From contig JANLFY010000017.1 in NCBI GenBank assembly GCA_024653485.1, positions 1-54,205 of the forward strand: a stretch of 54,205 nucleotides of DNA. Reading direction: 5' to 3'. Every line of letters starts with the position of its first letter. Position 1 is the first letter of the stretch. The notes beneath the pieces are model-generated. The model was not told the DNA's origin, did not search any database, and saw only the letters and a program-made list of their open reading frames with translations. The position numbers and the translations under genes are program-made. Origin of the DNA: Bacillota bacterium (lineage in GTDB: Bacteria; Bacillota; SHA-98; UBA4971). Below, piece by piece: positions 3,391 to 22,085 of this stretch.

Positions 3391-3571
3391 ACTTCGTCCT
3401 CCGAGTCTCGCATCGACTCACCGCATCAGTGCCGATCCGTTCAGCACATGGCGCCCGCCAACGGCACAAGGACACCGGAGCGTGAGGTCATCGGCCCAAG
3501 CTGGGCTCAGGGGATCTCCTCTGCTCTCCGCGACCTTCCCCCCGTCCCTAGCGGGCTTGACGAAGAGATTC

Positions 3572-5062: not shown

Positions 5063-5215
5063 TCGCGCCCACCCTCGCCATTCTCGCCGTCCTCGCTATC
5101 ATCGCTACCCTCGCCATTCCCGATATCTCCGCTATCTCCGCCCATCATCACGAGTACTCCGGCGATACCGGGGGAGCGCCCCAAACCGCCTAAGGAGCGT
5201 CGCCCGTGCCGAGCC
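5063..5215. repeat. Degenerate CTCGCYAT-type short tandem repeats
   Basis: The spacer between the alcohol dehydrogenase and the FGGY kinase reads on the plus strand as a run of imperfect 9-12 base units such as CTCGCCATT, CTCGCTATC, ATCGCTACC and ATCTCCGCT (about 5080-5150). No gene or terminator is seen. The same type of decayed short repeat fills several other spacers of this window. Confidence 0.6.
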
Positions 5216-6256: not shown

Positions 6257-7005
6257 GACACTTCCTCTCGTCCATCTCCGTGGACCACCCTTGCAAGCTC
6301 GCGCGCCATAGCCCCAGGGTCTTCCGCCTCGAAGACGTTACGGCCGAACGCGATCCCCGCCGCCCCTGCGTCAAGGGCCTCTCTGGTCACGCTGATGGGG
6401 TCCGATGTGCGCGGTCCGCCCGCGATCACTATCGGGACCCTGCACGCGTTGACGATCCTATCGAAGCCCTTACCGGTGAAGTAGGTCTTGATGAAGTCCG
6501 CGCCAAGCTCGTACCCTGCTCTGGCACACATCGCTATGCACTCAGTATCGTTGTTCATGCTCGTGTCGGCTGGAATGACCTCAGCGAGCACGGGCAAGCC
6601 GTACCTTGCGGCCTGCGACACGACACGCGCCATGTTCTCGAACATGCGCTGCTCCTGAGAGGCACCCACGATGACCATGACACACACAGCGTCGGCCCCC
6701 AGCGATACAGCCTCTTCCACGCCGCAGACGAGCGTGTGGTAGGACATGTCGGGATTGTAGCGAGTCGCGCCTCCCGTGAGACGGACAATGAGCCCACACC
6801 GCCCGGCATACGTCGGCCACTCGCTCCTGGCCACGCCCGGGTTGACGAGAATGGCGTCCGCGCCACCCTCCACGACCTGTCGTACGATGGACGCTGGATC
6901 GTGTATCCCTGGGGCCGGTCCCATGAACGCACCGTAATCGAGGGCGCTGACAAAGCTCCTGCCCCCTCGGAAAATCCTCCGCAGCCTGACTTCCTTGCCT
7001 GTCAC
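6247..7005 (-). CDS. DeoC/LsrF-like class I aldolase
   Basis: About 252 residues from the GTG at 7005, which follows GGAGGG by a normal spacer and overlaps the upstream stop (GTGA); a longer open frame to 7119 has only Arg/Gly-rich shadow sequence. The TIM-barrel strands are clear, with the Schiff-base Lys in GADFIKTYFTG and a phosphate-binding IVIAGGPRT. Within the FbaB/DeoC group the closest match from memory is LsrF, the autoinducer-2-phosphate thiolase (compare NPGVARSEWP and KTYFTGKGFDRIV), rather than fructose-bisphosphate aldolase. It should cleave or transfer carbon from a phosphorylated ketose-like product made by the kinases in this operon. Confidence 0.8.
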   Translation of the reverse strand: MTGKEVRLRRIFRGGRSFVSALDYGAFMGPAPGIHDPASIVRQVVEGGADAILVNPGVARSEWPTYAGRCGLIVRLTGGATRYNPDMSYHTLVCGVEEAVSLGADAVCVMVIVGASQEQRMFENMARVVSQAARYGLPVLAEVIPADTSMNNDTECIAMCARAGYELGADFIKTYFTGKGFDRIVNACRVPIVIAGGPRTSDPISVTREALDAGAAGIAFGRNVFEAEDPGAMARELARVVHGDGREEVSWR

Positions 7006-8051
7006 GATTCGTCCCTCCGAACGTCTCCGGCCTCCAGCCTGCGAGCACGAGCCTCGATGAGCTGCTTGGCCAGGATCTCGCAATTGAGATCGTTCATCCG
7101 CTCCACCGTCGTCACCCAATCCGGCGGCAAGGCATCGATGCCGCCGAGCGCCCCTGAGAGAGCGCCAACCATGGCCGCAAGCGTGTCTGTATCTCCCCCC
7201 ATACTTGCGGCGGCCGGGATCGCAGCGCGCGGACGTCCATCATAGAGCACGACCAGGCCGAGAGCTGTCGCCACGAGCTCGGCCGGGCACATGCCGACCC
7301 CGACGGTTTCGTAAAGGGCCTCCTCGGCTTTCTCGGGCTCGTCCTTGTAGCGTCGGACCAAGTCGAGCGCCAACATCATGCGTGCCGGCACCGTGGCGCC
7401 CGCCCACTGGACTCCTAGACGCTGCCCGGTAGCTGCACCGGCCAGGACAGCCTCGACCACGGCGTCGAGCGATCCTCCAGCCACAGCACACGCAACGCCG
7501 GCCGCCAAAGCGCACGCACCCGCTATTGCGATGTTGACACCGTGTGTAGGGAGCGATGAGAGGTACGCCTCGTTTGCTGCTGCCGCCGGGTCCCCGGCGT
7601 TCACGATGCCGATAGGCGCAACACGCATCGCAGCTCCGACAGTCGCCCCTTTCTCGCCCGTGCGCGTCGGGTCTTCCCCTGAGCGGAGGCGCTCTAGGGC
7701 ACTCCTCGAACTAGGGCCGAGGAAGGACGTCTCGAACGCGTTCGTACGGTCCGCCCATTCGAGGTATGCGTCGGCCGCCACGCGTGGCGTGATGCGTCCC
7801 GAGGCCAGGAGCGCCCGCGCGAGCGCCCATGTCTGTTCGGTGTCGTCCGTCACCCTACCCGCCGGTGTGCCCGTGTGGACGTGTCCTGGAAGGGGCTGGA
7901 GGAATCGATCGACCCTGCGGAACTGCTTCCTGATCTCTTCCCTCGTCATGAACTCGACCGCCATTCCCATCGCATCGCCCACTGCCAATCCTGCAAGGCA
8001 ACCCGTTGCCCTAAGCAAGAGCTCGCTATTCACTCGCCGGAGCACTTCCAT
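7002..8051 (-). CDS. ADP-ribosylglycohydrolase-family hydrolase
   Basis: 349 residues. The DraG-type di-metal motifs are intact: an N-terminal GLAVGDAMGMAVEF, a TDDTEQTWALA metal-binding segment and a C-terminal SMGGDTDTLAAMVGALSGA. Members remove ADP-ribose from proteins, but many operon-borne relatives sit with sugar or nucleoside kinases and probably cleave N- or O-glycosidic bonds of small ribosyl compounds. Here it lies between a PfkB kinase (26-base overlap) and the aldolase (four-base overlap), inside an ECF-transport operon, which argues for small-molecule catabolism rather than protein de-ADP-ribosylation. The ATG at 8051 is preceded by GGAGAG. Confidence 0.85.
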   Translation of the reverse strand: MEVLRRVNSELLLRATGCLAGLAVGDAMGMAVEFMTREEIRKQFRRVDRFLQPLPGHVHTGTPAGRVTDDTEQTWALARALLASGRITPRVAADAYLEWADRTNAFETSFLGPSSRSALERLRSGEDPTRTGEKGATVGAAMRVAPIGIVNAGDPAAAANEAYLSSLPTHGVNIAIAGACALAAGVACAVAGGSLDAVVEAVLAGAATGQRLGVQWAGATVPARMMLALDLVRRYKDEPEKAEEALYETVGVGMCPAELVATALGLVVLYDGRPRAAIPAAASMGGDTDTLAAMVGALSGALGGIDALPPDWVTTVERMNDLNCEILAKQLIEARARRLEAGDVRRDES

Positions 8052-9048
8052 CTTCTGTGTCTCTCCAACTCCTTGTGCTCGATTTACTCGATGTGCCCGA
8101 TGGCCGTCCAGGCGGCGCGATCAAAGCGCGAACCTCTTCCCAGACGGGCAATGCCTCCCTCGCTCCCATCTTCGAGACTGCGAGCGCCCCGCATGCGTTG
8201 CCTAAGGCCAAGCACTGGTCGCGCTCGAGGCCGGCGACGACGCCCCGTATGAATCCCGATGTAAAGGCGTCTCCAGCACCTGTCGTATCCACAACTGGAA
8301 CCTTCAAGGCGTCACGATGCCATCTCTCAACGGTCCCAGCTGGCGTCCCCCCGTCCACGTTTAGCTCGAAGAGATCCGCCCCCCTGTCTCCTTGAGTCAC
8401 CACTACACGCGTCGCGCCCGCGTCCGTGAGCGCGGTCATGGCCGCATCAAGGTCTGCCTTTCCGGTAAGGAGGCTCACTTCGCCTCGGCTGAGCACGAGA
8501 TAGTCCGCGAGGCGTATCATGTCGGCAAGCGCGTCCGTTCCCAGGCCGGAGAGCGCGCCGCCCGGGCCATAGACAATGAGAGCCCCTCTGTCCTTTGCGG
8601 CTCTCATGACCCTCACGCCGACGGAGGGCATTGCCTCGCCAACGTAGAGGGCGGCCGCACCTTCAAGGGCTTCTTCCCGGAACTCCCCCGGTGCCTCGAG
8701 AATGGCCGTGCCACCCAGCGAGAATATGACCCGCGTGCCCTTGCGATCAACAGCGATGATGGTTTCGGCGGTCCTCCCTTGGTCATCGACAAGGACGAAC
8801 GAGGAGTCCACCCCCTCGCGCTCGAACGCCTCGAGGAGTCGCCTCCCGTTGTCGTCACGGCCGACCTTCCCTACGAAACGCGAGGTCAATCCCAGGCGAG
8901 CCAGGCCCACGGCGATGTTCGCGGTTGAGCCGCCGGGCAATAGATAGGGACCGTCTTCAGCGAATACCATCTCATCAGGCCCCGGAAGCCTGTCCACTCT
9001 GAACAACATATCGATGGCAGCGGCACCCAGCGCAACAACGGTCTTCAT
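8026..9048 (-). CDS. PfkB-family carbohydrate/nucleoside kinase
   Basis: 340 residues. It carries the two PfkB signatures: an N-terminal substrate-binding PGGSTANIAVGLARLG and the C-terminal anion hole and catalytic Asp in DTTGAGDAFTSGF. This family includes ribokinase, adenosine kinase and pseudouridine kinase. With the hydrolase downstream and an importer upstream it probably phosphorylates either the imported compound or the sugar released from it. It begins three bases after ecfT ends, with GGGAG about eleven bases before the ATG, and overlaps the hydrolase gene by 26 bases. The last 20 residues are Ser/Thr-rich and probably disordered. Confidence 0.85.
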   Translation of the reverse strand: MKTVVALGAAAIDMLFRVDRLPGPDEMVFAEDGPYLLPGGSTANIAVGLARLGLTSRFVGKVGRDDNGRRLLEAFEREGVDSSFVLVDDQGRTAETIIAVDRKGTRVIFSLGGTAILEAPGEFREEALEGAAALYVGEAMPSVGVRVMRAAKDRGALIVYGPGGALSGLGTDALADMIRLADYLVLSRGEVSLLTGKADLDAAMTALTDAGATRVVVTQGDRGADLFELNVDGGTPAGTVERWHRDALKVPVVDTTGAGDAFTSGFIRGVVAGLERDQCLALGNACGALAVSKMGAREALPVWEEVRALIAPPGRPSGTSSKSSTRSWRDTEDGSAPASE

Positions 9049-9051
9049 AGT

Positions 9052-9885
9052 TCAGAGCGCTCCCACCTTGTAGACGGCGAGACCCACTACGCTCGCGATC
9101 GCCGCACCAATGCACGCCAAGACCACCACATAGTCAGGCGTCTTGAACCTATATGGCCGCAGGAAGGTGAACCGCTTGCTCGAGCCGAAAGCGCGCGACT
9201 CCATGGCCAGGGCGAGTGTATCTGCCATAAAAAGGGCGTTGGCGAAGAGGGGCGACACTACCCGTGAGGTTTTCTTGAGCCTTTCCACGAAGCTGCCCCG
9301 CTCGAGCTCCACCCCTTTTGACTTGTGAGCGTCCATCAGGGATCGCACTTGGGCTTGGACCACAGGAACGAACTTCCATGCAGTCGAGACAATGAACCCC
9401 ACCTGATACGGCATCTTGGGAATCCTCGCGATGAGCTGGACTATCTCTGACGGCGAGGTCACATACCCCAGCACAGCGACGGCCACCAGGACGGTGAGGA
9501 CCTTGAGTGTCATCCCGATCCCGTAGAGAAATCCGCCAAGCTTCACAGGCCACGCCGGACCGATGCCCGGCACCCATGCCGGCACGACATGGAAGAGTAC
9601 CCGGCCTGGTGTCCGCAGATGCGCGACAGCCGGGGTGTACGACACGCCCTGGGCAAGCGTGATCACCACTGCTACCACTGCCAGGAAGGTCACGAGCCCC
9701 TTGAGCCTCCCCCACGGGAACCGAGCGAAGGCTCCGAAGAGGAACACGCTCGCCGCTAGCCCGGCAAGGTACACGGGATCCGACCAGATAACGCTGACGA
9801 CCACGACGACCAGAAGCCAGAGGATCTTGGCCCTTGGGTCGAGGGAATGTATCGGAGTGTCCTTGCTCTCATACTCGACGATCAT
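9052..9885 (-). CDS. ecfT: ECF transporter transmembrane component EcfT
   Basis: About 277 residues from the ATG at 9885 (MIVEYESKDTP), which overlaps the ATPase stop (ATGA); an upstream in-frame start at 9963 would lie inside the ATPase gene and is unlikely. It has four to six hydrophobic helices and the EcfT family coupling helices with short Ala/Arg motifs (MDAHKSKGVELE, and AMESRAFGSSKR near the end). EcfT connects the substrate-specific S protein to the ATPases. It sits directly after the ATPase gene and three bases before the PfkB kinase, so import and kinase are co-expressed. Confidence 0.85.
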   Translation of the reverse strand: MIVEYESKDTPIHSLDPRAKILWLLVVVVVSVIWSDPVYLAGLAASVFLFGAFARFPWGRLKGLVTFLAVVAVVITLAQGVSYTPAVAHLRTPGRVLFHVVPAWVPGIGPAWPVKLGGFLYGIGMTLKVLTVLVAVAVLGYVTSPSEIVQLIARIPKMPYQVGFIVSTAWKFVPVVQAQVRSLMDAHKSKGVELERGSFVERLKKTSRVVSPLFANALFMADTLALAMESRAFGSSKRFTFLRPYRFKTPDYVVVLACIGAAIASVVGLAVYKVGAL

Positions 9886-11654
9886 CGCAAGCCCTCCCTT
9901 GAGGCCTCCAGGTGCATGAACGCCTCGACCGCCTCCTCGGGTGTGAGGGCCACTAGGCCACACAGCGCGGTCGACAGCTCTGCAATGGCAGGGGGCTTCA
10001 AGTTCGCCTCCGCCATCAGCTCACAATCGGAGAACACTTCGCGCGGTGAACCATCGCCAACCACTCGGCCTCTCGCCATGACCACGACGCGCCTTGCATA
10101 CAGGCTGACGATGTTCATGTCGTGCGTGATTATGAGGATTGTCTTGCCTCGTTCCTCGCCAAGCCTCTTGAGGTAGTCCATGATCTGTAGCGACTCCGAC
10201 CAGTCAAGTCCGGTGGTCGGCTCGTCCACGATGAGCACTGCGGGATCCATGGCCACAACCGAAGCGAGAGCCAGCTTCTGGCGCTCGCCTTTCGTCAAGT
10301 ACTTCGGCCACACGTCGCGGTACATGGCGAGCCCTATGTCCTCAAGGATCTCCTGAACCCTTTCATCGATCTCTTTGCCGATGAGTCCTATGTTGCTGGG
10401 CCCGAACCGTAGTTCCTCTTCCACGCTGTTGCAGAATAGCTGCTCGTCAGGGTTTTGGAACACATATCCGACCGTTCGTGACACTTGGGCGGCCGTCAGA
10501 TCCTTGATCGATCTGCCACCGATCCGTACGTCCCCTCTCGTCGGCTTGAGCAATCCGTTGAGGTGGCGCGTCAGAGTGGTCTTGCCAGCACCGTTCTGCC
10601 CGACTATCGCCACGAATTCACCTTCCTTGACCGTTAGGCTCACGCCGCGCAGTGCAACGGAGCCCTGTGGATACACGTGTTCGAGCTCTTTCACCTCGAT
10701 GAGTGCGTTTCCAGGTTTGATCCGCACGGATTCCGAAGGGGCTGACCGCGCAACGCAGGTCGCCTGGCGGTCTTGCGCTGTGGCCTGACCTTCGCCAGCG
10801 CTGACGTTGTCCGCCTTCCGCCACGCGCCCCTCTCCACGAGCTCGACAGCTTCGTCCAATGTGAAGGGGACCTTCTCCGCCTGCAATAGGGTGCCAAACT
10901 GGACCAGATGTGGGACGCGGACCCCGGCGGCCGCCACCTCGGCCACGCGACTGAAGACCTCGCGAGGTGTGCCTTGCAAGACGAACCTCCCCGCCCCCAT
11001 CACGAACACCCTGTCGGCCAGCTGGAGGACGTCGTCTACCTCCTGCTCCACGAGGACCACCGTGATCCCGAGCTCTTCTTTCAATCGCCTGATGATCTCG
11101 AAGACGCGAGCCTTGCCTTGTGGATCGAGCATTGAGGTAGGCTCATCGAGGACCATGATGTCGGGAAGCATAGCGTATACGCCGGCTATGGCCGTGGCCT
11201 GCTTCTCACCGCCGGAGAGTCTGTACGGAGCGCGCCTCTCGAACCCCGCAAGGCGCATGTCGACAAGGCTCTTGCGCACGCGCTCCATGATCGTTCGGTA
11301 ATCCAGTCCGAGGTTCGCTGGGCCGAACGCCACATCTTCCTCGACTGTCATCCCGAAGAGCTGCATGTCAGGATCGCCGAAGACTAGCCCAACATGAGCC
11401 GCCATCTTGGCTGTGCCGACCCTGGCGGGCACCATGCCGTCCACCACCACGTCGCCTTGGAGATCGCCCTCGAGGAAGAGAGGCACCGTGCCGTTCATCA
11501 CGCCGCACAGGGTGCTCTTGCCAGAGCCTGTGGGGCCCAACACCGCTACGCACTCGCCCTTTGCGACTTCAAGCGACACACCGTCCAGCGCCCAGCGGCC
11601 AGACCCCTTGTACTTGAACCTCACGTCTTTCAACGATATGACCTTGTCCGTCAC
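9882..11654 (-). CDS. Fused double ATPase of an ECF transporter (EcfA-EcfA')
   Basis: About 590 residues in two complete ABC ATPase halves. Half one has Walker A GPTGSGKST, signature LSGGEKQ and Walker B IMVLDEPTSMLDP. Half two (from about residue 345) has GQNGAGKTTL, signature LTKGERQ and VLIVDEPTTGLDW. A linker of about 80 residues joins them. ECF importers normally use two separate ATPases (EcfA1/A2); here they are one chain, as in YkoD/CbiO-like dedicated systems. The GTG at 11654 is chosen because AGAGGTG precedes it with good spacing and the first NBD strand starts soon after; an earlier in-frame start at 11720 is less likely. Its stop overlaps ecfT by four bases. Confidence 0.9.
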   Translation of the reverse strand: MTDKVISLKDVRFKYKGSGRWALDGVSLEVAKGECVAVLGPTGSGKSTLCGVMNGTVPLFLEGDLQGDVVVDGMVPARVGTAKMAAHVGLVFGDPDMQLFGMTVEEDVAFGPANLGLDYRTIMERVRKSLVDMRLAGFERRAPYRLSGGEKQATAIAGVYAMLPDIMVLDEPTSMLDPQGKARVFEIIRRLKEELGITVVLVEQEVDDVLQLADRVFVMGAGRFVLQGTPREVFSRVAEVAAAGVRVPHLVQFGTLLQAEKVPFTLDEAVELVERGAWRKADNVSAGEGQATAQDRQATCVARSAPSESVRIKPGNALIEVKELEHVYPQGSVALRGVSLTVKEGEFVAIVGQNGAGKTTLTRHLNGLLKPTRGDVRIGGRSIKDLTAAQVSRTVGYVFQNPDEQLFCNSVEEELRFGPSNIGLIGKEIDERVQEILEDIGLAMYRDVWPKYLTKGERQKLALASVVAMDPAVLIVDEPTTGLDWSESLQIMDYLKRLGEERGKTILIITHDMNIVSLYARRVVVMARGRVVGDGSPREVFSDCELMAEANLKPPAIAELSTALCGLVALTPEEAVEAFMHLEASREGLR

Positions 11655-11802
11655 AAGGAACACCTCTCTACCAGCCACGAGCCCCGCCCGTGCGCCGTGC
11701 GATTCGAGGCGCGCCCACACCGCGCGCCCGCACCGGCGTTCTGGCGCTGATACCCTCGTCCGGCTGTCTTCACAACACAGACGAGCTCACGCTACGACAA
11801 GC

Positions 11803-12420
11803 TCACGCTACCTGCTCAGGCCTCTTCCTGTGCTGGGCGGTCCTCAACATTCCAGCAACGACCAGACCGATCGCTGCGTTCGCCGCCGATCCAATGACCT
11901 GCGATGGAAGGATGGCCAGCATGAGCGGCATCCCGATCATGATCACCCAAGGTCCCAGGCACGTCACGGTATTCGCGATCGTGCCGACTATGACGGCAGG
12001 CACTACCCCCGCCTTCTTCGCCACGAACGCGGTCAGCGTCACGGTAAGCGCCATCCCCGAAAGGTATATCGGCACCATGGGGAGCCAGCTCGCGAAACCA
12101 CCGAGAGCATTGCTGATGAAGCAGCCAATGGCAGCGACCGTTGCGCCCACCGGCCAGCCGAAGAACACCGCTGCGAAGTAACCCGCCGACGCATCAAGAG
12201 CTATAGTAGTGGCGGGCCCAGGAACCTTTATCATCGCTCCCGCGCCGGACACCGCAGCCAGGATGGTTACCCTGGCGATGGTCCGCGTGTCCCAGCGAAC
12301 GTTGTGTTCCTCGGGATAATGTGCCGTAAGGTATCGCCCAATTACCCACATGAGGACGAGGTACCCGACGGCGAGAAGGTAGGACACCCCGAGACCGAGA
12401 GCCCCCTGACCAAGCCCCAC
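11803..12420 (-). CDS. ECF transporter substrate-binding S component
   Basis: About 205 residues with six hydrophobic helices. Gly/Ala-rich segments such as ATVAAIGCFISNALGG and SGYFAAVFFGWPVGA-like turns are typical of S components that bind vitamins or similar small solutes. GTG at 12420 is preferred because GGAGG lies eight bases upstream; the longer frame from 12429 would put the ribosome binding site against the start codon. The S component sets transporter specificity, but I cannot match it to a known class (thiamin, riboflavin, biotin, queuosine and others) by eye. It follows sorC and precedes the double ATPase after a 148-base gap that shows no clear terminator. Confidence 0.75.
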   Translation of the reverse strand: MGLGQGALGLGVSYLLAVGYLVLMWVIGRYLTAHYPEEHNVRWDTRTIARVTILAAVSGAGAMIKVPGPATTIALDASAGYFAAVFFGWPVGATVAAIGCFISNALGGFASWLPMVPIYLSGMALTVTLTAFVAKKAGVVPAVIVGTIANTVTCLGPWVIMIGMPLMLAILPSQVIGSAANAAIGLVVAGMLRTAQHRKRPEQVA

Positions 12421-12473
12421 GAAAGACACCTCCAGTCAGCCTAGATGTGGAGTGAACAGCCCGCCGAGCTTCT

Positions 12474-13418
12474 CTAGGCCAGCGACATCACCCCTCTCGC
12501 TGCAGCATCGTCAGTAATGATCACATCCACGACCTTGCTGCGCAGGGCACCAAGGATCGCCTCGGTCTTGTTGGCCCCGCCCGCAACGGCTACGACCTTC
12601 TTCATGCGGCCGAGCTCTTCCAGGGTCACCCCGATGATCCTGTCGTTCAGCGGCGTCTCGAGAGGACTGCCATGGACGTCGAAGAAGCGCATGCACATGT
12701 CACCCACCGCACCCATTCTCCGCAGCTCACGGAGCTCCGCATCGGGAAAGCCGCCTCTTTCGAGGAGAGTGGAAGGCGGCCTGAAGGTCCCTACTCCGAC
12801 CAGTGCTACGTCCACGTGCTCCCACAACTCAACGACCCGCTTTATGTTGCTATCAGCCATGATGGCCGCCTTCGCCGCAGGGGTGTCAACGAACGATGGC
12901 GCGTGGAGGTAGAGGTTGACTCCGCCAAGCGACTTCGCAACCCTCGCGGCAAGCTCATTGATCTGGAGATCGGCTGCGACCTGGCCGAGCCCGCCAAGCA
13001 GTGGTACCACGGTGACCTTGAGCGATGCCGACACGGCACCGTCGAGCGTCGTCGCGACCTCCCGCAGAGTCGCTCCCCATGAGACTCCAATCACCGATCC
13101 GTCTTTGACGGAGCGGGCAAGGTAGCTCGCTGCAGCACGCCCCAGGCTCTGCGCGAGGAGTCGCGGCGAGTCAATCCCCCCTGTTACGAGGGCGTCCTTG
13201 AGGTCGAACCTCTCCTTCAGCGCCCTCGCCAGGTCACTATAGTCGACGTCAGGATCAATGACCTTCAGGAGCACGATGCCGGCATCGCGTGCCTGTTTCA
13301 GCGCCCGCGATACCTGACTCCTCGACATGCCCAAACTCCTCGCGATCTCTTCTTGCGTGCGCTCGAGCTCGTAGTACTGGTGAGCGATTTCATGGAGAAC
13401 CCTCTTGTCGAAAGACAC
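12474..13418 (-). CDS. SorC/LsrR-family transcriptional regulator
   Basis: About 314 residues from the GTG at 13418, which has an excellent ribosome binding site (AAAGGAGG, six bases before it). An N-terminal helix-turn-helix (TQEEIARSLGMSRSQVSRAL) is followed by the sugar-phosphate-binding SorC effector domain with a VIGVSWGATLREVA segment and a late VAGGANKTEAILGAL phosphate loop. SorC-type proteins (SorC, DeoR of Bacillus, CggR, LsrR) sense phosphorylated sugars made by the pathway they control. It is first in the operon, directly downstream of two palindromes that are probably its own operators, so autoregulation and substrate induction are likely. Confidence 0.9.
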   Translation of the reverse strand: MSFDKRVLHEIAHQYYELERTQEEIARSLGMSRSQVSRALKQARDAGIVLLKVIDPDVDYSDLARALKERFDLKDALVTGGIDSPRLLAQSLGRAAASYLARSVKDGSVIGVSWGATLREVATTLDGAVSASLKVTVVPLLGGLGQVAADLQINELAARVAKSLGGVNLYLHAPSFVDTPAAKAAIMADSNIKRVVELWEHVDVALVGVGTFRPPSTLLERGGFPDAELRELRRMGAVGDMCMRFFDVHGSPLETPLNDRIIGVTLEELGRMKKVVAVAGGANKTEAILGALRSKVVDVIITDDAAARGVMSLA

Positions 13419-13431
13419 CTCGATCCTCCTT

Positions 13432-13457
13432 TGCACATCTGTGCAGCACACTTGTGC
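13432..13457 (-). promoter_or_regulatory. Two abutting palindromes, probable SorC operators
   Basis: Two perfect inverted repeats touch end to end: TGCACA-TC-TGTGCA (13432-13445) and GCACA-CT-TGTGC (13446-13457). They share the half-site GCACA/TGTGC with a two-base centre. The first abuts the ribosome binding site of the SorC gene (13425-13432). Their place just before a sugar-responsive regulator gene suggests autoregulatory binding sites. No clean -35/-10 pair was identified next to them. Confidence 0.6.
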
Positions 13458-13526
13458 ACCAGCAGGGTGTTACTTCGACGTGGGTTTCGGAAATCCTCCT
13501 TCTCGCAGCTTCACCGGACAAGAAAA

Positions 13527-13565
13527 GGCGGGGGCTCCGCGACTTGATGTCGCGCAGCCCCCGCC
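13527..13565 (-). terminator. Strong hairpin terminator reading leftward
   Basis: A long GC-rich stem (GGCGGGGGCT paired with AGCCCCCGCC, continued by CGCGAC/GTCGCG with a one-base bulge) closes over a short loop; on the minus strand it is followed at once by TTTTCTTG. This fits a Rho-independent terminator that stops leftward transcription before the SorC operon. It could instead act as a leader attenuator if the operon promoter lies further right, but I see no riboswitch or T-box signature. Confidence 0.7.
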
Positions 13566-13596
13566 AGAGTGGATGATGAACGGTCTCGCCGCGGCC

Positions 13597-13740
13597 TCAC
13601 CAGTCCTTCCGGCAACTTCTGTCGCACCCAGGTGCGGCACTCAGGTGCGGCACCCCGGCACCAGTGGCCGCGCCGTGCTCACCAGTCGTATGCAGGCCAC
13701 CACAGTGTGTCCCTTGATGCAAGGCTCTTCCCTGGTTCAT
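13597..13740 (-). CDS. Possible 47-residue ORF with upstream gene scrap
   Basis: The ATG at 13740 is preceded by GAGGTGA with good spacing and opens a 47-residue frame rich in Gly, His and Cys (MNQGRALHQGTH at the start). I recognise no family. Four bases upstream ends another open stretch (13745-13839) whose 31 codons (KKGGSIVEALVPAGPIKLHM in the middle) read like the end of a real protein but have no start, because an in-frame stop and the insertion-sequence remnant lie before it. The whole may be the tail of an interrupted gene, ending at the hairpin at 13527-13565. Confidence 0.25.
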   Translation of the reverse strand: MNQGRALHQGTHCGGLHTTGEHGAATGAGVPHLSAAPGCDRSCRKDW

Positions 13741-13948
13741 TTCTTCACCTCGAGACGTCGAGCATGTGCAACTTGATGGGGCCTGCAGGCACAAGAGCTT
13801 CCACGATACTCCCGCCTTTCTTACCGAGTACGGCTTCCTACAAGCCCCCTAACTGGTTTAAACAGGGGAGCCTGGGGGTGGTGGAGAAGGAGCGGGAGGA
13901 AGCGTAGATGTGACGCTGAGGAGGTACATGGAGTAGCGGAATCTTGCG

Positions 13949-14302
13949 GTGACTCGAGAAGCGGTCGAGACTGGCAACGGCTCGATGGAAGGAAGCCATT
14001 ACATGGCGACTACAGGCCTGCGATACGGACAGATGACAGGCCACAGTATAGCAGATGTATTTCAGGAGGCCTACAGCCGTTACGGCGTGAAGCATGAGAG
14101 AATGCACGCAAGCACCCCTGACAAGAACGCCCAGATGGAGGCGTTCCACAGGTTGCTGGAAGAGGAACGCTTATCGCTACATGGGTTTGAGACTTATGCC
14201 ATGGATACGAGCAGGCGGCAGAGTACATGGAGTTCTACAACACCGGGCGGATGCACTCGTCTCTTGAGTTCATGACACAGCAGGAGTGTTACCGAGCAAC
14301 TC
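13949..14302 (+). pseudogene. Dead IS3-type transposase fragment
   Basis: The frame from 13949 matches the second half of an IS3-family OrfB integrase core: VFQEAYSRYGVKHERMHAST, then NAQMEAFHRLLEEERLS holding the conserved Glu, then GFETYA. The frame then shifts and continues from 14227 as MEFYNTGRMHSSLEFMTQQE, the usual end of such transposases. The segment that should carry the second catalytic Asp (TDNG-like) reads ATTGLRYG, so the Asp is lost. The first part of the gene is missing. It is therefore a non-functional remnant, followed at about 14313-14393 by a conserved non-coding end that recurs at the left edge of the window. Confidence 0.75.
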
Positions 14303-14393
14303 AATGCGATCCTCATGACAACTGCCCGGGACGACTGCCTGGAGGTCTCTTTTCATCATTGACCCCACACTCACCCACAAGAGCTTCACGCTA
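14303..14393 (+). mobile_element. Insertion-sequence end following the dead transposase
   Basis: This non-coding stretch follows the transposase remnant and stops exactly where the asparagine-synthetase-like gene ends. It aligns by eye with about 200-280 of this window (shared GGGACGACTGCC, TC-rich run, TCATTG, CCACACTCA and ACGCTAC), and a shorter part (CTCTCTTCTTCATTG) recurs at about 28444-28458. I read it as the right end of an IS3-type element. Confidence 0.45.
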
Positions 14394-16067
14394 CTACAGT
14401 CGCTGGTCCATTTGCGTGAATACGGGGTCAGGGGTCGCCCGATCTTGGTAAAGCACCTTCGTCCGGCCCACCGGAGGCAGCGAGATGGCGTCAGGGTCCG
14501 TGGTGGTGTCTTGGAAAGACCTCCTAAACACGAGGAAGTAGTGCAGCTCCTCCTTATTCCTCAGCCCCCAGCGCGCGATAGCCTCACACTCGCGCCTCAC
14601 GTCCTCGTCGCTAACCTTGGACGCAAGCGCCCTCTCGAGCATGTGCATGGACCCCGCCCCCTGCGAGAACATCTGCTTCTTGCGCCAGGCTATGGATGGT
14701 GGCAGTTCCTTCTCGAAGGCCTTGCGCAATATCCACTTCTCCACCTTGGTCTCGCCTTCCCCGGCGATCTTCAGCGAAGGATGTATTGTCATCGCAGCCC
14801 TTACGAAACGCTCGTCGAGGAAAGGAGCCCTCGCCTCCACGCCCCATGCCATCGGCATCCTGTCACAACGCTGGAGGCCTGTATTGTGCAAGGACTTCAG
14901 CAGGTCGACCAAGTCATGGTGCAAGAGACCGGGCTCGATGGCGCGAAGATGCGAGTATCCCGCGAATAGCTCGTCACCCCCCTCCCCTATCAAGACCACT
15001 CTGACACCGTGGCGCGACGCCATCTCGGCGACCATGTAGTTGGGGACGCAGCTCCTGATGAGAGGGGCATCGTACGACTCCATGTGGTATATCGCCTTGG
15101 GAAGCACCTCCTCCATATCTGCGAGGGAGAAGGTCCGAACGTGGTGCTCCACTCCGAGATACTCCGCGAGCTCCGTGGCTCGCGCCACATCCTCCGAGCC
15201 TTCCACGCCCACGGAGAAGAACTTGAGGTCGCTGGTGAGCTCGCGGGCCAGGCACGCGATTATGCTGCTGTCGAGTCCCCCGGACAGGAAGACGCCACAG
15301 GTTCCAGAACACGCAGAAGACTCGGAGGACTCGGAGGAGGATGGCAACCCGGAGGAAGCAGGGGACGCGGAAGACGTGGAAGGCAAGGAAGACACGGAGG
15401 ACAGAGAAGACGAGGAAGACACGGAAGACGGCAGCTGACGCGCGACGGCCGCCCGAAGCTCGCGACGTATGATCTCCACGGCCTCGTCAACATCGGTGAC
15501 CTCAGGCGGAGGGAACTCCAGGGAGGCAAACTTGTGGAAAGTCCTTCCGTCGGTCGACACGGTCCCGCACGGAAACTCGACGATGTCTTTCGCGATCCCG
15601 ACTAGCGCCTTCATCTCCGATGAGAAGAGAACCTTGTCGCCGTCGTAGCCCAGGTACAGCGGCTTCTTGCCAAGCACGTCCCGGGCGATTATGACGACGT
15701 TTCCGGGTAGAGTCGCGCAGTGCGGCGGGACGGAAGTACCCTTGCCGCCTCGGAGAGCCGCCACCAGGGTGAAGCCGCCGGTCACGCCCGCGAGGGCGGC
15801 CTCGGGGCCTTGTGTTGCGAGCCTCCGTAGGAGAGCCGAGGGGGTCAGCAGGCTCGTGCCGTCAGCAAAGGCCCGCCCGTCCAGGAATAACGCACCTTCA
15901 TCCTGAATCGAACGAGCTGATGCGTCGGTCGGAAGCTCAATATGGCCGATGGCCACCTGGCCTCGGCTGACGACGGTCTTTTCTTCCCCCCTGTGCCGCA
16001 TCTTCTCGAGCATGTGGAGAACGATATTGTGATCCGCCGCTCCTAGGACGCCTGCTATAGCGCTCAT
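14394..16067 (-). CDS. Asparagine-synthetase-like protein with degenerate glutaminase domain
   Basis: About 557 residues. The C-terminal synthetase half is complete: pyrophosphatase loop GVFLSGGLDSS, LIGEGGDELFAGY, and EARAPFLDERFV, so ATP-dependent amidation or adenylation is plausible. The N-terminal glutaminase domain has the fold (SAIAGVLG, HRG) but lacks the nucleophile Cys at position 2 and the Arg, Asn and Asp that bind glutamine (GHIEL replaces the usual LGHRRL; LDGRAF replaces NGEIYN). It would have to use free ammonia or another partner. A Ser-rich linker (about residues 213-255) separates the halves. ATG at 16067 is chosen to align with the family N-terminus; GGGAG lies eleven bases upstream. 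Confidence 0.8.
   Translation of the reverse strand: MSAIAGVLGAADHNIVLHMLEKMRHRGEEKTVVSRGQVAIGHIELPTDASARSIQDEGALFLDGRAFADGTSLLTPSALLRRLATQGPEAALAGVTGGFTLVAALRGGKGTSVPPHCATLPGNVVIIARDVLGKKPLYLGYDGDKVLFSSEMKALVGIAKDIVEFPCGTVSTDGRTFHKFASLEFPPPEVTDVDEAVEIIRRELRAAVARQLPSSVSSSSSLSSVSSLPSTSSASPASSGLPSSSESSESSACSGTCGVFLSGGLDSSIIACLARELTSDLKFFSVGVEGSEDVARATELAEYLGVEHHVRTFSLADMEEVLPKAIYHMESYDAPLIRSCVPNYMVAEMASRHGVRVVLIGEGGDELFAGYSHLRAIEPGLLHHDLVDLLKSLHNTGLQRCDRMPMAWGVEARAPFLDERFVRAAMTIHPSLKIAGEGETKVEKWILRKAFEKELPPSIAWRKKQMFSQGAGSMHMLERALASKVSDEDVRRECEAIARWGLRNKEELHYFLVFRRSFQDTTTDPDAISLPPVGRTKVLYQDRATPDPVFTQMDQRL
15300..15440. repeat. Imperfect GAAGACACGGAG-type repeat inside the asparagine-synthetase-like gene
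   Basis: On the plus strand this reads as many copies of a roughly 12-base unit (GAAGACACGGAG, GAGGACTCGGAG and similar). On the coding minus strand it gives a Ser/Pro-rich linker between the glutaminase and synthetase domains that relatives lack. It looks like a tandem expansion inside a conserved gene. Confidence 0.7.
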
Positions 16068-16409: not shown

Positions 16410-16774
16410 CCTCGCGTCCGCGGATCCGGCATTTCGGCGCTCAAACGCTCGCGCGCTTCCGCGCTTTCGAGCTTTCGCGCCCGTGCAGCTTCATGCGAAG
16501 ACCGCTCGGTCTGCCGAGAGGACGAATTTCCTTGCCGGCTCGGCGACTCTCCGGTACGATCAGGCCGTAGACGAGACGCAACGCCTGAGGCTGCTTCCGC
16601 GGTCCGTGGGCCCTCGGGGTCTCGTGAGGGGGCCTTGTGAGGGATTGGTGAGGGAATGGCTCGGTGCCCGCGGGTGGTGCAAGACCAGCGAGCACAAGCG
16701 AGTTGTCAGGTGACGCCACTGCCACGAAAGCACGCGAAGCCAGCACAAAGCACCGGGCGTATGCGGACAGTGAA

Positions 16775-17035
16775 ATGTCGCAGATTTCAATGACATTCAA
16801 GCGGCACTTCGCATCGAGAGCTGACGTGGTCCTGGCATTTCTCTTCGGGTCGTATGCCATGGGAAAGGCAACCAGACGCTCGGATGTGGACGTAGCGGTG
16901 TACTTCCCGAGCGCTCACGAAAGGCCTTCCTTGCCCAAGGCCGCTTCGACGCTCAAGCTTTCTCGGGCTATCCTGGACAGGATCGAGGAACGGATGGCTG
17001 CCAAGAACGGAAATACACAGGTTGAGCTTGTGTAG
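16775..17035 (+). CDS. Orphan minimal nucleotidyltransferase (MNT) domain protein, possibly truncated
   Basis: About 86 residues. It contains the nucleotidyltransferase signature FLFGSYAMGKATRRSDVDVA, with both metal-binding Asp residues, as in the antitoxins of HEPN/MNT (type VII) modules. The start is uncertain: ATG at 16775 or 16790, neither with a good ribosome binding site; the open frame runs back to 16664. The C-terminus stops at VELV, where relatives continue with a short VDLN-type strand and helix, and the stop falls inside a 15-base tandem repeat (AGGTTGAGCTTGTGT, AGGTTGCGCTCGTGC). No HEPN partner follows. It is probably a worn toxin-antitoxin remnant. Confidence 0.55.
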   Translation: MSQISMTFKRHFASRADVVLAFLFGSYAMGKATRRSDVDVAVYFPSAHERPSLPKAASTLKLSRAILDRIEERMAAKNGNTQVELV

Positions 17036-17214: not shown

Positions 17215-18144
17215 ATGCTGACCATGAGAGAGTCAATCACCTTTGCAAACGAAGGGCAAAAGCTCATAGGCGTCCTCCATCGTCCCGCTCGTCCGGTTAC
17301 GCCGGATCACGACAAGGCCCCGGCGGTAGTCCTCTTCCACGGGTTTACGGGAACCAAGGTCGAACGCCACCGCATCTTCGTGAAGACAGCGGAGGCACTG
17401 GCGCGCGAGGGAATCGTCGCCTTGAGGTTCGATTTCCGTGGCTCGGGCGACAGCGAAGGGGATTTCGAGGACATGACCCTTCCGGGGGAGATCTCGGACG
17501 CGAGGGCTTCGCTGGACTATGCATCCGGCCTTCCAGGGGTAGACGGGAACAATCTCGGCATACTCGGCCTCAGCATGGGCGGGGCTGTCGCTGCGTGCGT
17601 CAGCGATGATCCGAGAGTTAGATCTGTGGTGCTGTGGTCGGCGGTGGCGGACTTGGAGGCGACTTTCCTTGACGCCGTACGATCGGGCGCGTGGCGGGAA
17701 GCCCCCGGCTCCGGCGTCACGGGCGCTGAAAGGCCTGGCCCTGCCCCTGGCCAGCCGGCATCGCCTGGGGCCGATGAGGCCACCGGCAAGTCTCCTGAGG
17801 GACATGGCAACGAGCACATACCAGCGCTTGCAGCGTTCGCGATACCGCGTAGAGTTGACGTGAAGGGCAACGTCGTCGGAAGGGAGTTCATACTGACCCT
17901 TACTGAGGCGCGACCGCTCGAGACCGTGCAGAGGTGCAAGGCCCCGGTCCTCGTGATCCACGGTGACCGTGACGAGTCCGTTCCGGTCAGTCACAGCGCG
18001 ATGTATGAGAGGGCCATAAAGGAAGCGGACGGAACCGTCGAGGTACACATAGTCGCCGGAGCCGATCATACGTTCAATTCAGCGGTGTGGGAGGCCGAAG
18101 TGCTAAGCAAGACGGTCGCATGGTTCAAGAGGAGCCTGCTGTAG
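17215..18144 (+). CDS. Alpha/beta hydrolase (serine esterase/peptidase-like)
   Basis: About 309 residues. The alpha/beta-hydrolase core is clear: oxyanion strand VVLFHGFTGTKVE, RFDFRGSGDSEG, nucleophile elbow GLSMGG, acid in HGDRDESVP and His in GADHTF. Relatives are cytoplasmic esterases or acyl-peptidases of the FrsA/dienelactone type. A Gly/Pro-rich insertion of about 45 residues (near residues 163-210) sits in the cap region and looks disordered. The ATG at 17215 follows GGGAGG by seven bases; an in-frame GTG six bases earlier is less well placed. No operon partner is evident. Confidence 0.85.
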   Translation: MLTMRESITFANEGQKLIGVLHRPARPVTPDHDKAPAVVLFHGFTGTKVERHRIFVKTAEALAREGIVALRFDFRGSGDSEGDFEDMTLPGEISDARASLDYASGLPGVDGNNLGILGLSMGGAVAACVSDDPRVRSVVLWSAVADLEATFLDAVRSGAWREAPGSGVTGAERPGPAPGQPASPGADEATGKSPEGHGNEHIPALAAFAIPRRVDVKGNVVGREFILTLTEARPLETVQRCKAPVLVIHGDRDESVPVSHSAMYERAIKEADGTVEVHIVAGADHTFNSAVWEAEVLSKTVAWFKRSLL

Positions 18145-18271
18145 CGGTGAGGCTCGCGGGCGCGCGGTAAGACAGGAGCCGGGCACCTGCCAAACGACCA
18201 GACTAACAGACCAATACAGGCAAACGGGGATGGCGAGACGGCTCGCGTCGCGCCGCAGGGTTTCACACGTG

Positions 18272-18730
18272 CTACAGGGACCCGGCGCGCAAGTGGGCTA
18301 AGTCGAGCGCCATAAGTATCCTACGTATCGTGGCTTGGCTGACACGCGTGCCATATTGCCTGACGAGGTGAAGCGAAAGATTGATCGTGGTCCATATGCT
18401 AAACAGGTAGCCTTTTGACGCCGGGGAGGCAAGCACATCCCTTTCGATGAGGGGAAGGGTGGCCGCCGAAACCTTCGGCGGCCTGCCGGAACGAGGCCTG
18501 TCGGCAAGGCAGTCAATGCCTTCTTTCTCAAAGCGCTCGATCCAACGCCGGACGGTACCCTGAGTGGCATCGAATAGCCGAGCTATCTCCGCCACACAGT
18601 AGTGCCGGTTCGAAAGAAGAATCATGTGAGCCCTTTGAGATACCCGACCAACTTCGTTGCGTCGCGTGACTTCCAGCTTTCTTACCTCCTCATCTGATAG
18701 GGACCGAACATACCTCAACCTATACAGCAC
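18272..18730 (-). pseudogene. Truncated IS630-family transposase (helix-turn-helix half)
   Basis: 152 residues matching the N-terminal DNA-binding part of IS630-type transposases: RAHMILLSNRHYCVAEIARL, TQGTVRRWIERFEKEGI, the linker LADRPRSGRPPKVS, and a second helix-turn-helix ending RVSQATIRRILMALDLAHL. The DDE catalytic half is absent, and the sequence to the left is unrelated hydrolase-flank DNA. A perfect 9-bp inverted repeat (CCTGCTAGC, 18733-18741 and 18751-18759) lies just before the gene and may be part of the element end. It is a remnant and should not transpose by itself. Confidence 0.7.
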
Positions 18731-18759
18731 CTCCTGCTAGCAAATGAGCAGCTAGCAGG

Positions 18760-19136
18760 CATTATACATGGAAAACCGAGATATGTCGATCACTTTTGAG
18801 CAGTCACTTAGACACAGCCGCCCGTGAGTCCGCCGTTAGGCTGCAGTCTAGACCTACGGGAGGTGACCGTTTGTGGGTGCGTAGCACTCCGCGATGGCCG
18901 AATCATCGTGTTCGGAAGCCTGCGGAGCGCCAGAGTGGCGTATGCAGTCATTCAGCTCCCGGGATCGGTATGTGCAGGAGAACAAGGAAAAGTGTAGTAA
19001 ACACAACATTGTAAGATAGTTTAACCGCCTGATGCTATCAAGCCTCATCGACTGCGGCGTTTAGGCACGACAGCCGGGAGGGTTGGCTAAAAAGACTACT
19101 AGGATTCGCTTGGGTTTCGCGGCTGCTTAAGCCTGC
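18760..19136. other. Non-coding spacer at island entry
   Basis: No gene or RNA is recognised. Base composition shifts toward AT from about 18970, where AACACAACATTGTAAGATAG begins. This marks the left boundary of the restriction-modification island. Confidence 0.4.
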
Positions 19137-19544
19137 ATGGAGAGAATGGCCCCTGCGAAGGGGGCGATAGCGAACTTTGATACGGGATTTCGCGAAGAGG
19201 TCTTGAACGTGGTACTGGCGGAACTGCTTGATGAGCGGGGCATAGTCTCTGCCCCAGAGTCCATCAAGCGCGGACCTGGCAGGGCTCACAGGACGACGCC
19301 TGATGTCTTTGTCTCCTCTAGAGGGTTGAGAACGGTGCTCAAAGGCAGAGTTGATGACTCGCCTAACCAGGGACGGCACGTCGTATCGGGTGCGAAGATG
19401 CGTCCGGAGCAAGGTATTACCCATGTCTCAACATACGCGGCTTACAATGAGCGCTTTCGAAGAAGAGACCTCATGAGACGACAGCTGACAAGAAACACAC
19501 TGCGCATGGGTTTCTTGCCGTCACTGGGGCCACCCGGAAAGTAA
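19137..19544 (+). CDS. Unrecognised island protein, probably a truncated nuclease-like N-terminus
   Basis: 135 residues. The first 100 residues look like genuine protein: ANFDTGFREEVLNVVLAELL, then TTPDVFVSSRGLRTVLKGRV and MRPEQGITHVSTYAAYNE. The pattern (acidic helix, a PDVF-strand, then a strand with an E-Q-like pair) recalls the start of PD-(D/E)XK-like domains in larger restriction-associated proteins, but this is a weak resemblance and no family is assigned. The tail after YNE is basic and likely out of frame. The gene lies 28 bases before an HNH nuclease on the same strand, so it was probably part of the same restriction unit. Confidence 0.4.
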   Translation: MERMAPAKGAIANFDTGFREEVLNVVLAELLDERGIVSAPESIKRGPGRAHRTTPDVFVSSRGLRTVLKGRVDDSPNQGRHVVSGAKMRPEQGITHVSTYAAYNERFRRRDLMRRQLTRNTLRMGFLPSLGPPGK

Positions 19545-19572
19545 CAGGCTTCCATCTAGGAGGAAGGGTGTT

Positions 19573-20307
19573 TTGAGTAAGGGCAGACGCAATGGCTTCG
19601 GCAGTTCGAGGCAACCCGTAGCAAAACTGAGTAGACGAGTCAGGATCGTGCTTGAGCACATCAGGCAACAAGGGCGAGTCACCACCGAAGAATTGAGGAA
19701 TATGGGTTACAACCATCCTCCGCGCGCAGCCAGGGGTGTGCGTGAGGCCGGTATTCCGTTGAAAACTATCAGGGTAAGGTCCTCGACCGGTAGAGCCATT
19801 GGTGCGTATGTGCTGGATACTGATACGCCGGCAGAACGCCGTAAGCAGGGAGGACGCCGCACTTTTTCAAAGGCCTTCAAGAAGCGCTTGGTCGACCATT
19901 ACAGCTCAAAGTGTGCAATGTGTGGCACAAAATACGATAACCGATATCTTCAAATTGACCATCGCGTCCCCTATGAGGTGGGCGGCGATGAGAGCACGAC
20001 AGAGGATTCACTAGAACCCTTCATGCTGTTATGCGGGGCCTGCAACAGACGAAAGAGCTGGTCTTGCGAACATTGTGACAACTGGCGCAAGACCAAAGAT
20101 CCCAAGCTATGTAGGACTTGTTATTGGGGGTCACCTGAGTCCTACACACATGTGGCCCTGCGTCGTATCCGCCAACTGATAATCGCGTGGCTCGAAGATG
20201 AAGTAGACGAGTATGACGCAATAGCAGCTAGGGCGGAAAAGGAGGGAATACCAGTGCCGGAACTCATAAAACAGCTGCTAGCTCAGACATTAAACAGACA
20301 TGCCTGA
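19573..20307 (+). CDS. HNH endonuclease of a restriction-modification island
   Basis: 244 residues. The centre carries a zinc-bound HNH motif: CAMCGTKYDNRYLQIDHRVP, then CGACNRRKSW; a second Cys cluster (CEHCDNW, CRTCYWG) follows. The N-terminal 90 residues resemble a small helix-turn-helix (VTTEELRNMGYNHPPRAARGV) that could read DNA. TTG at 19573 is chosen because AGGAGG lies about ten bases upstream. Its 3' end overlaps the convergent adenine methylase gene by 25 bases. The pairing of an HNH nuclease with a D12-class methylase suggests a restriction-modification system in which this protein is the cutter. Confidence 0.8.
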   Translation: MSKGRRNGFGSSRQPVAKLSRRVRIVLEHIRQQGRVTTEELRNMGYNHPPRAARGVREAGIPLKTIRVRSSTGRAIGAYVLDTDTPAERRKQGGRRTFSKAFKKRLVDHYSSKCAMCGTKYDNRYLQIDHRVPYEVGGDESTTEDSLEPFMLLCGACNRRKSWSCEHCDNWRKTKDPKLCRTCYWGSPESYTHVALRRIRQLIIAWLEDEVDEYDAIAARAEKEGIPVPELIKQLLAQTLNRHA

Positions 20308-21197
20308 CTGTGCTCAGGAGCTGGCCTCTCTTCGTGTTCGAGACGGTCTAGTAAGGCTGGAGAAAGGTATAATGATTCTACGGTCACGTCGTCTCGTCCA
20401 AGCAATGTGGCTTGACTTGATCTTCCTGCTGGCAACAGTATCCTCTTAAGTTTGAGGTGTGAAGGCAGTTCCCGTCCGTAGGTTCGCATACCACATCTGC
20501 CATCGAAACTTATCATGAAGGAAATGCTTTTCTTGTTCAGCCGTTCGAGCTCCTCAATAAACACCTGCACATCCAGCGGCTTAACATAACGGCGATCCTT
20601 ATTTCCACTCACTCCTTGATAGGGAGGGTCCATATAGACTAGATCCTCAGGTTCTACCAACCGTAGGACGTCCCGATAGTCTTCTGACAGCACTACAGTT
20701 CGCCCGGCAAGAAGATGATGAGCGCGCAGAATCTCTCCTCTCATCTTGGCCGGTCTCATACCGAGCCGGCGATTGTCAGGTGACTGGTTGAATTTCCCCT
20801 CAGAGTTAAATCGCACGGCGTTCTTGACACACCGCGCTAACAAGTAGAGTAGCTTACTCGGTTGTTGATCCTGATTGAACTCGTCTCGAATACGATTGTA
20901 GGTAGCCTTTGGATCGCCCAACTGAGAGCGCCAAATCTCCTCGTATTCCCGCGCAAGGCGGTGAGGGTCCTGAAGGAGCAACACCCAAAGCTCAGCGAGC
21001 GGTTTCAGGCAGTCAGAAATGAGAAAACGCTGTGCTTTGTTCATACTCGCTGCAGCAAGCGAAATCGCAGCGAACCCTGCAAATGGTTCAACTAACCGCC
21101 CTGTAGTGACTGCTGGTGCCAACGCAAGGATTCTAGGGGCTAGGAGCCGCTTACTTCCTTGGTAAGGGATGGGACAAGGGATCTTGCCCGTCATCAC
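20283..21197 (-). CDS. D12-class N6-adenine DNA methyltransferase
   Basis: 304 residues. The Dam-type layout is present: S-adenosylmethionine-binding PYQGSKRLLAPRIL at the start, VEPFAGFAAISLAA (motif I), and the catalytic DPPY in DLVYMDPPYQG (motif IV). It should methylate adenine at a short DNA target. It is convergent with the HNH nuclease and overlaps it by 25 bases, and the 78-residue protein gene lies just upstream on the same strand. The region is visibly less GC-rich than the flanks, which suggests horizontal transfer. Confidence 0.85.
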   Translation of the reverse strand: MMTGKIPCPIPYQGSKRLLAPRILALAPAVTTGRLVEPFAGFAAISLAAASMNKAQRFLISDCLKPLAELWVLLLQDPHRLAREYEEIWRSQLGDPKATYNRIRDEFNQDQQPSKLLYLLARCVKNAVRFNSEGKFNQSPDNRRLGMRPAKMRGEILRAHHLLAGRTVVLSEDYRDVLRLVEPEDLVYMDPPYQGVSGNKDRRYVKPLDVQVFIEELERLNKKSISFMISFDGRCGMRTYGRELPSHLKLKRILLPAGRSSQATLLGRDDVTVESLYLSPALLDRLEHEERPAPEHSQACLFNV

Positions 21198-21257
21198 GGC
21201 GCCACCTCCAGATACAGTCGAGGGTAGTTTGCTACGCGGTCTTCTTAGTCTCTTGCT

Positions 21258-21494
21258 TCATCTATCTTGCTCCACCCTAAAGCCCAAGCGGCTAAGGATT
21301 CTATACGCGTCCTGAGACGTAAAGCCTATGGGCGGGAGCCCCGTGACCTGAGATATGACTTGCTTTATGGGATACGCCTTGCCGTTCACTCTCACCAGAT
21401 ACTTAGACTTGCCCTCCGGCTCGACATATTCAAGCTTTTCCTCAACATCCGCCATGCTCAGATTGAAGACTGTCCCTCGTATCACGAACTGCAT
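21258..21494 (-). CDS. Small island protein with YPIKQ/LGF domain
   Basis: 78 residues, apparently complete. The pattern SKYLVRVNGKAYPIKQVISQ, then GFTSQDAYRILSRLGF, recurs in small proteins and as an N-terminal head in some McrA-type restriction nucleases (ScoMcrA-like head is the nearest comparison I can make; uncertain). It lies 60 bases before the adenine methylase on the same strand and is probably co-transcribed with it. It may be a DNA-recognition accessory of the restriction island. Confidence 0.45.
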   Translation of the reverse strand: MQFVIRGTVFNLSMADVEEKLEYVEPEGKSKYLVRVNGKAYPIKQVISQVTGLPPIGFTSQDAYRILSRLGFRVEQDR

Positions 21495-22085
21495 GGTACA
21501 CCTCCTACATTTCCACTTCCTACACTTAATATACCATCGTCACCCTCAAGTGACAAGTCAACCCTAATTCCAGATGCAAGAAGTAGTCTCCTAACCGCTC
21601 TGTCATCCTTGCATGATCTCTCTGCTTCTCACCGTACTAGACCGCTCACGGCAGGCTGAGGGGACAAGAGTCCACAGCTAAAGGAAGGGGCACGCACGGG
21701 ACGCGGGGACAACACCCTCCCGTGCGAGTCCTTCAGCCGCAGTTGAGGGTCAGACTGAGGACTCACGTAATGCACCTGTATGTGCGCGGTCAGGCACAAG
21801 CATGCTCCGAGATGCTTCGTAGACCAGCAAACCATCGCGGCACCCGGCGCGAGGCATAGCCTAGTTCAAGATGGTTCCCCATGTTCTTCCCGGACAGGGA
21901 ACGCTACCCGAGGGTTCGGTATTCTTTGCAGACACACGGAATTCTGCTCATCCCGCTGTTGCTACGCATAGCGACCAGACAGGCGTTTAGTAGTCGCATA
22001 TGGCGTGTCCGCCAAGCTGTCTTGGCGGACACGCAAACCTCCCAGCCGCAGCAATGCCTTGCGATGGCATCCTAATGGGAGCACT
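21495..22085. other. Spacer with a perfect 14-bp hairpin
   Basis: No gene is supported. The notable structure is a perfect inverted repeat at 22003-22034: GCGTGTCCGCCAAG, loop CTGT, CTTGGCGGACACGC. It lies about 50 bases beyond the thiL stop, so on the minus strand it could end the thiamine operon, though no T-tract follows. It may instead be a mobile palindrome. Confidence 0.5.

Follow-up and report, generated by a model that had tools for sequence, protein, structure and literature searches.

A probable type II restriction-modification pair of an HNH nuclease and a D12 methylase in a variable slot of a Bacillota genome

Gene content of the locus

The locus lies in a stretch of 54,205 nucleotides from a Bacillota bacterium (GenBank assembly GCA_024653485.1, contig JANLFY010000017.1), which at its full length is referred to here as the window. 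Four reading frames are flanked by an alpha/beta hydrolase gene on one side and by thiL on the other, and a transposase fragment sits at the left edge of the island that they form:

18141-21717, no strand: variable slot from the alpha/beta hydrolase gene to thiL; both flanks align to a congener (G010)
18272-18730, minus strand: IS630-type transposase fragment of 152 residues, the N-terminal helix-turn-helix half (NCBIfam transpos_IS630)
19137-19544, plus strand: ORF of 135 residues, read as a decayed remnant of a type IIG-like N-6 methylase protein (its N-terminal, PD-(D/E)XK-like domain)
19573-20307, plus strand: HNH restriction endonuclease ORF of 244 residues, with a TTG start and GGAGG directly 5' of it
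HNH protein, about residues 18-94: winged helix (predicted model; weak match to Pfam HTH_39)
HNH protein, about residues 96-191: HNH core, with CxxC pairs around it and C165/C168/C180/C183
HNH protein, about residues 199-244: ribbon-helix-helix-like C-terminal segment (model; weak match to Pfam RHH_1)
20283-21197, minus strand: D12 (Dam-family) N6-adenine DNA methyltransferase ORF of 304 residues, the presumed protective partner
21258-21494, minus strand: ORF of 78 residues, a free-standing head-like module; either a passenger or an accessory gene, and not conserved as a partner

The HNH and D12 genes are convergent and their 3' ends overlap by 25 nt, and the 78-residue gene is encoded on the methylase strand, 60 nt upstream of the methylase gene. 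By reading, the HNH, D12 and 78-residue genes each have a good ribosome site, and no clear one was seen upstream of the 135-residue frame. The four genes have a GC content of 0.51-0.56, versus 0.63 for the hydrolase gene and 0.67 for thiL in the flanks. The transposase fragment matches positions 1-110 of the 299 in its profile (E 4.7e-21), and a genome-wide search found no second copy of it. An earlier interpretation made from the letters of the DNA (hereafter the sequence-only reading) had described the four frames, the convergent overlap, the small gene ahead of the methylase, the AT-richer DNA, the IS630 fragment at the border and an N-terminal helix-turn-helix in the nuclease; all of these hold, the last as a winged helix indicated by the weak HTH_39 match and the predicted model.

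The nuclease and the methylase

The HNH protein matches the PADLOC type II restriction enzyme model REase_II (PDLC03566) over residues 17-237, nearly its full length (E 6.2e-53), and Pfam HNH at 4.3e-5; further matches, to Pfam HTH_39 (E 0.005) and, at the C-terminus, to RHH_1 (E 0.0095), are weak hints below the Pfam cut-offs. In an alignment with 90 relatives, the family-invariant residues (D129, H130, N158, R159, and the KSWSCE.C motif) are kept and the cysteines C114, C117, C154, C165, C168, C180, and C183 are intact. The predicted model (36-row alignment, mean pLDDT 87, pTM 0.62) consists of a winged helix, the HNH core, and then a C-terminal helix pair. Residues 6-88 match winged helices (best Z 7.4), residues 96-191 the HNH domain of Cap5 (Z 7.2), and residues 199-244 Arc (Z 6.6, rmsd 1.1 over 43 residues), middling Z values that indicate a common arrangement only. 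Sequence searches of the PDB returned no close relative of the HNH protein. Among its relatives, those at L004 1633-2364 (Aeromonas) and L018 2004-2648 (viral) lack the first zinc-type cysteine pairs around the HNH core and retain the DH motif and the second cysteine set in the alignment.

The D12 protein matches PADLOC MTase_II (PDLC03341) nearly over its full length (E 7.6e-81) and Pfam MethyltransfD12 at 1.5e-28, and its YQGSKR, EPF.G, and DPPY motifs are intact in an alignment with 93 relatives.

Linkage of the two genes across genomes, plasmids and viral contigs

With a 13-row HNH alignment as query, genome contigs gave at least 591 candidates, of which at least 573 were confirmed; linkage was assessed in the best 80 loci, with the more distant HNH relatives lying outside this sample. 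A D12 gene adjoins the HNH gene, within 236 bases, at 77 of these 80, in methylase-first tandem at 74 and convergent, like the window, at three. The remaining three loci (L047, L070, and L095) are cut by contig ends: the contig begins 226, 122, and 93 bases away from the HNH gene, respectively, and at L047 the tail of a methylase is still visible. By record titles, the best 80 loci come from Bacteroidota, Chloroflexi, Planctomycetes, Acidobacteria, Pseudomonadota, archaea, and further groups.

Used alone as query, the HNH protein found no relatives in viral contigs, single-protein pattern scans missing them at such divergence; they were reached instead through the D12 search, in which 12 of 15 viral-contig D12 relatives have an HNH relative nearby. 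At L017 only part of the HNH protein is matched, and at L023 the match includes a stop. The closest relative, L013 (69% identity for D12, 56% for HNH), shares the convergent arrangement and the overlap of the gene ends; next to it is a serine recombinase, recognised by reading. The three viral-contig loci without an HNH relative comprise two distant methylases (L026 and L027) and L014, where an orphan D12 relative of 56% identity (4992-5873) stands in a 529-kb viral contig, an indication that such a methylase may also stand by itself. Plasmid HNH relatives were found in two records, both also carrying D12: Hymenobacter pHsw3, with the genes in tandem, and Aeromonas pWP2-W18-CRE-05_9, with the genes convergent and accompanied by a helix-turn-helix (HTH) gene. 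These REase_II/MTase_II pairs resemble that of the window in being adjacent genes (about 47-51% identity), whereas the window pair is convergent with overlapping ends, a minority arrangement, and lacks an HTH controller gene.

Distances among the HNH proteins correlate with those among the D12 proteins (r 0.82 over 88 pairs, being the window and 87 loci), a value that none of 999 permutations reached (largest permuted value 0.20); host relatedness also feeds this correlation, which by itself supports the partnership without proving it. Taken in this way, the correlation supports co-evolution of the two proteins. Judged by profile matches and distribution, the pair belongs to a large, widespread and already known family, and the partial texts returned by a literature search included no paper recognisably about it.

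The sequence-only reading had proposed a four-part set, of which the HNH–D12 core stands. At none of the best 80 HNH loci does either the 78-residue or the 135-residue protein find a match below E 0.01 (a single row, at E 0.28, was disregarded), and the co-occurrence elsewhere that had been expected of these neighbours is therefore not seen for either. This search finds 38%-identity relatives of the 78-residue protein at E about 1e-11. Clustering of neighbouring ORFs around 87 pairs gave no family present at more than three loci, an HTH controller-like gene being among the families at three or fewer. On the gene neighbourhoods, the system travels as two genes. One system of all four genes was rejected on these grounds (0/80 best loci and no recurrent third gene) and on the occurrence of the 78-residue relatives elsewhere; the puzzling four-gene cluster is better described as an ordinary restriction pair accompanied by the dead remains of another restriction enzyme and by a presumed passenger, the head-like module.

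The 135-residue frame

The 135-residue frame has no family match in Pfam, NCBIfam, or PADLOC. A plasmid search gave a single match (E 7e-3), to the N-terminus of a 947-residue N-6 DNA methylase of Aminobacter pUSP4, a type IIG-like protein whose N-terminal 90 residues align with the frame at 34% identity (pairwise E 7e-14); a Sulfuricystis relative aligns at 33% over 91 residues. Both proteins carry PD...EGK, which we take to be the PD-(D/E)XK nuclease motif. Compared with the Aminobacter enzyme, the window copy is truncated and reads PD...KGR at this position, as it does when set against the Sulfuricystis protein. With either protein as query, no row in the window for the remainder of a type IIG-like enzyme rose above chance level (all at E 2 or higher). 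Two weak genome matches of the 135-residue query (L121 and L122) were set aside, since the ORFs that contain them show no evident relationship on reading. We read the frame as a probable decayed remnant of another restriction enzyme, corresponding to a type IIG-like N-terminal nuclease domain. The frame had earlier been called a broken partner: broken it appears to be, with its parent family recognisable, and its absence from the best 80 loci speaks against a partner.

The 78-residue protein

The 78-residue protein scores 36.3 bits (E 4.5e-9) against NCBIfam SCO5918_fam (NF038312), for which the curated cut-off is 60 bits, and on this score it is a relative of that family, not a member. A literature search, which reached its sources in part, returned no paper naming SCO5918. 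In an alignment-based search, five of 398 genomes match, that of the window included. Relatives form the N-terminal part of proteins of about 260 residues on Pimelobacter and Nocardioides plasmids, the C-terminal part of which weakly resembles UPF0102/Mrr nucleases, below curated cut-offs. Another genome of the phylum, distantly related, encodes a free-standing relative of 49% identity (L128/L132).

The module, with the pattern YP.KQ...TG.P...F...L...GF, is also shared with three McrB-like AAA motors (L133-L135), where it lies inside open frames of 690-809 residues with an AAA_5 motor domain; the window copy, in contrast, is free-standing. Each of these frames is followed by a McrC-like protein with DUF2357 and PD-(D/E)XK domains, DUF2357 being linked to McrC (PMC11090510). 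HNH or D12 relatives are absent from all six loci of 78-residue relatives that were checked. The protein has no matches in viral contigs, one of its plasmid relatives used as query has none in phages, an alignment made for a further search of it offered no conserved stretch, and PDB sequence searches gave chance-like rows only.

The predicted fold (mean pLDDT 84, 5-row alignment) places ScoMcrA (PDB 5zmm) at ranks 1-3 in Foldseek, with a best E of 0.086 that is not significant alone. Superposed on the ScoMcrA head (residues 4-94), the model gives a Z of 7.1 (VIA; rmsd 2.6 over 60 residues, 17% identity; next entry Z 2.6), although a Z under 8 is no proof of a shared fold. The head is described as a small and flexible domain with no known function (PMC6224610). 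In ScoMcrA the head precedes sulfur-binding, SRA, and HNH domains, whereas the window module stands alone. Because the module occurs in McrB-like proteins and is predicted to fold like the ScoMcrA head, the label "reader-like" given to it earlier is a plausible and fair guess, and such a free-standing module may link stand-alone proteins, McrB motors, and ScoMcrA, and so provide a modest entry point to the function of the head. At L132 (259-801, minus strand), the free-standing relative is followed by a 180-residue protein that has no Pfam match and whose RVDVV...LIAECG stretch is PD-(D/E)XK-like by eye; if that likeness is real, it would fit a recurring pairing of head and nuclease.

The hydrolase–thiL slot

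None of the 12 other genomes of the family that were compared, five of them congeners, contains the HNH protein. The alignment between the window and congener G010 stops at about 18140 and restarts at about 21717; in this one congener, on which the slot comparison rests, the hydrolase gene and thiL are both present, 13 kb apart, with a fill of 12.3 kb. The G010 slot contains BrxA, PglZ, BrxHI/HII, PglXI, BrxC, and BrxF (L123, G010:C20:63000-82500, 2955-14930), which we take to be a type III BREX set. Since type III BREX occupies the same slot in G010, the interval between the hydrolase gene and thiL can be regarded as a defence slot, and different defence systems seem to replace one another there in related species, the same chromosomal position holding a type II restriction-modification system here versus type III BREX in the congener. 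In two further congeners, G009 and G012, other genes come after the hydrolase gene, and a search for thiL at E 0.001 found none in either. The claim of a recently arrived restriction island is supported by the absence from the 12 genomes, the low GC content, and the alternative slot content of G010. Elsewhere in the window, an ORF at 16664-17035 contains a GSYAMGKATRRSDVDVAVYF stretch that resembles a minimal nucleotidyltransferase (MNT) fold by eye.

Interpretation of the pair

We interpret the HNH and D12 genes as a conventional, intact type II restriction-modification system that was horizontally acquired into a variable defence slot (probability roughly 0.88). The D12 enzyme would methylate adenine within a short target sequence, and the HNH enzyme would bind DNA through its winged helix, probably as a dimer, for which the Arc-like C-terminal part of the model offers a possible interface. 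It would cut the same target when unmethylated, methylation blocking cleavage, so that incoming phage or plasmid DNA would be destroyed, and the pair would thereby serve against phages. Its arrival between the hydrolase gene and thiL would have been by horizontal transfer. The 78-residue protein would be an unrelated free-standing module that by chance comes first in a presumed operon with the methylase gene.

A different role for the nuclease is suggested by winged helix-HNH proteins of 224-283 residues, described in one study as m6A-dependent type IV enzymes and reported there near methylases with non-conflicting targets (PMC11037411). The HNH protein shares their domain order and size class, and its predicted model runs from winged helix to HNH; it might on these grounds be an m6A-dependent type IV nuclease that merely neighbours a methylase. 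Such an enzyme, cutting the methylated target of its own cell, would kill that cell, or serve no purpose, unless the two targets differ, which disfavours this possibility, as an intact adenine methylase adjoins the nuclease at 77 of the best 80 loci and co-evolves with it. The best profile match of the HNH protein is moreover a type II restriction enzyme. We consider the type IV alternative very unlikely.

Returning to the type II reading, its limitation to two genes can be questioned from the position of the 78-residue gene, 60 nt upstream of the methylase gene on the same strand. Small first genes in restriction-modification operons are often controllers, and this one has a GGAGGT ribosome site and, at 21556-21528, a promoter-like site with 10 of 12 matches (the region has two such sites versus 1.6 by chance). 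HTH controller-like genes are present at a few relatives of the pair, and the module is common to McrB-like motors. A three- or four-component system, in which the module works as controller or target reader of the pair, is nevertheless highly improbable, given that the protein occurs at 0/80 best pair loci, that the six loci of its relatives that were checked lack HNH and D12, and that it has no helix-turn-helix family match in Pfam or NCBIfam. Recruitment of a working ScoMcrA/McrB head module into the methylase operon, tuning target choice or expression of the pair, is likewise unlikely; if true, it would give the head module of ScoMcrA a separable, testable role.

HNH domains are also common in homing enzymes, and a phage collection gave low-scoring, partial HNH matches, over 28-30% of the length, in Streptococcus phages. 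A homing-type endonuclease carrying the cassette is hardly credible despite these matches: no intron or intein context was seen, the restriction enzyme model is matched over the full length, and the methylase partner is constant. The homing reading was rejected on the REase_II match and the D12 linkage, the nuclease matching the PADLOC type II restriction enzyme model (6.2e-53) and not homing enzymes.
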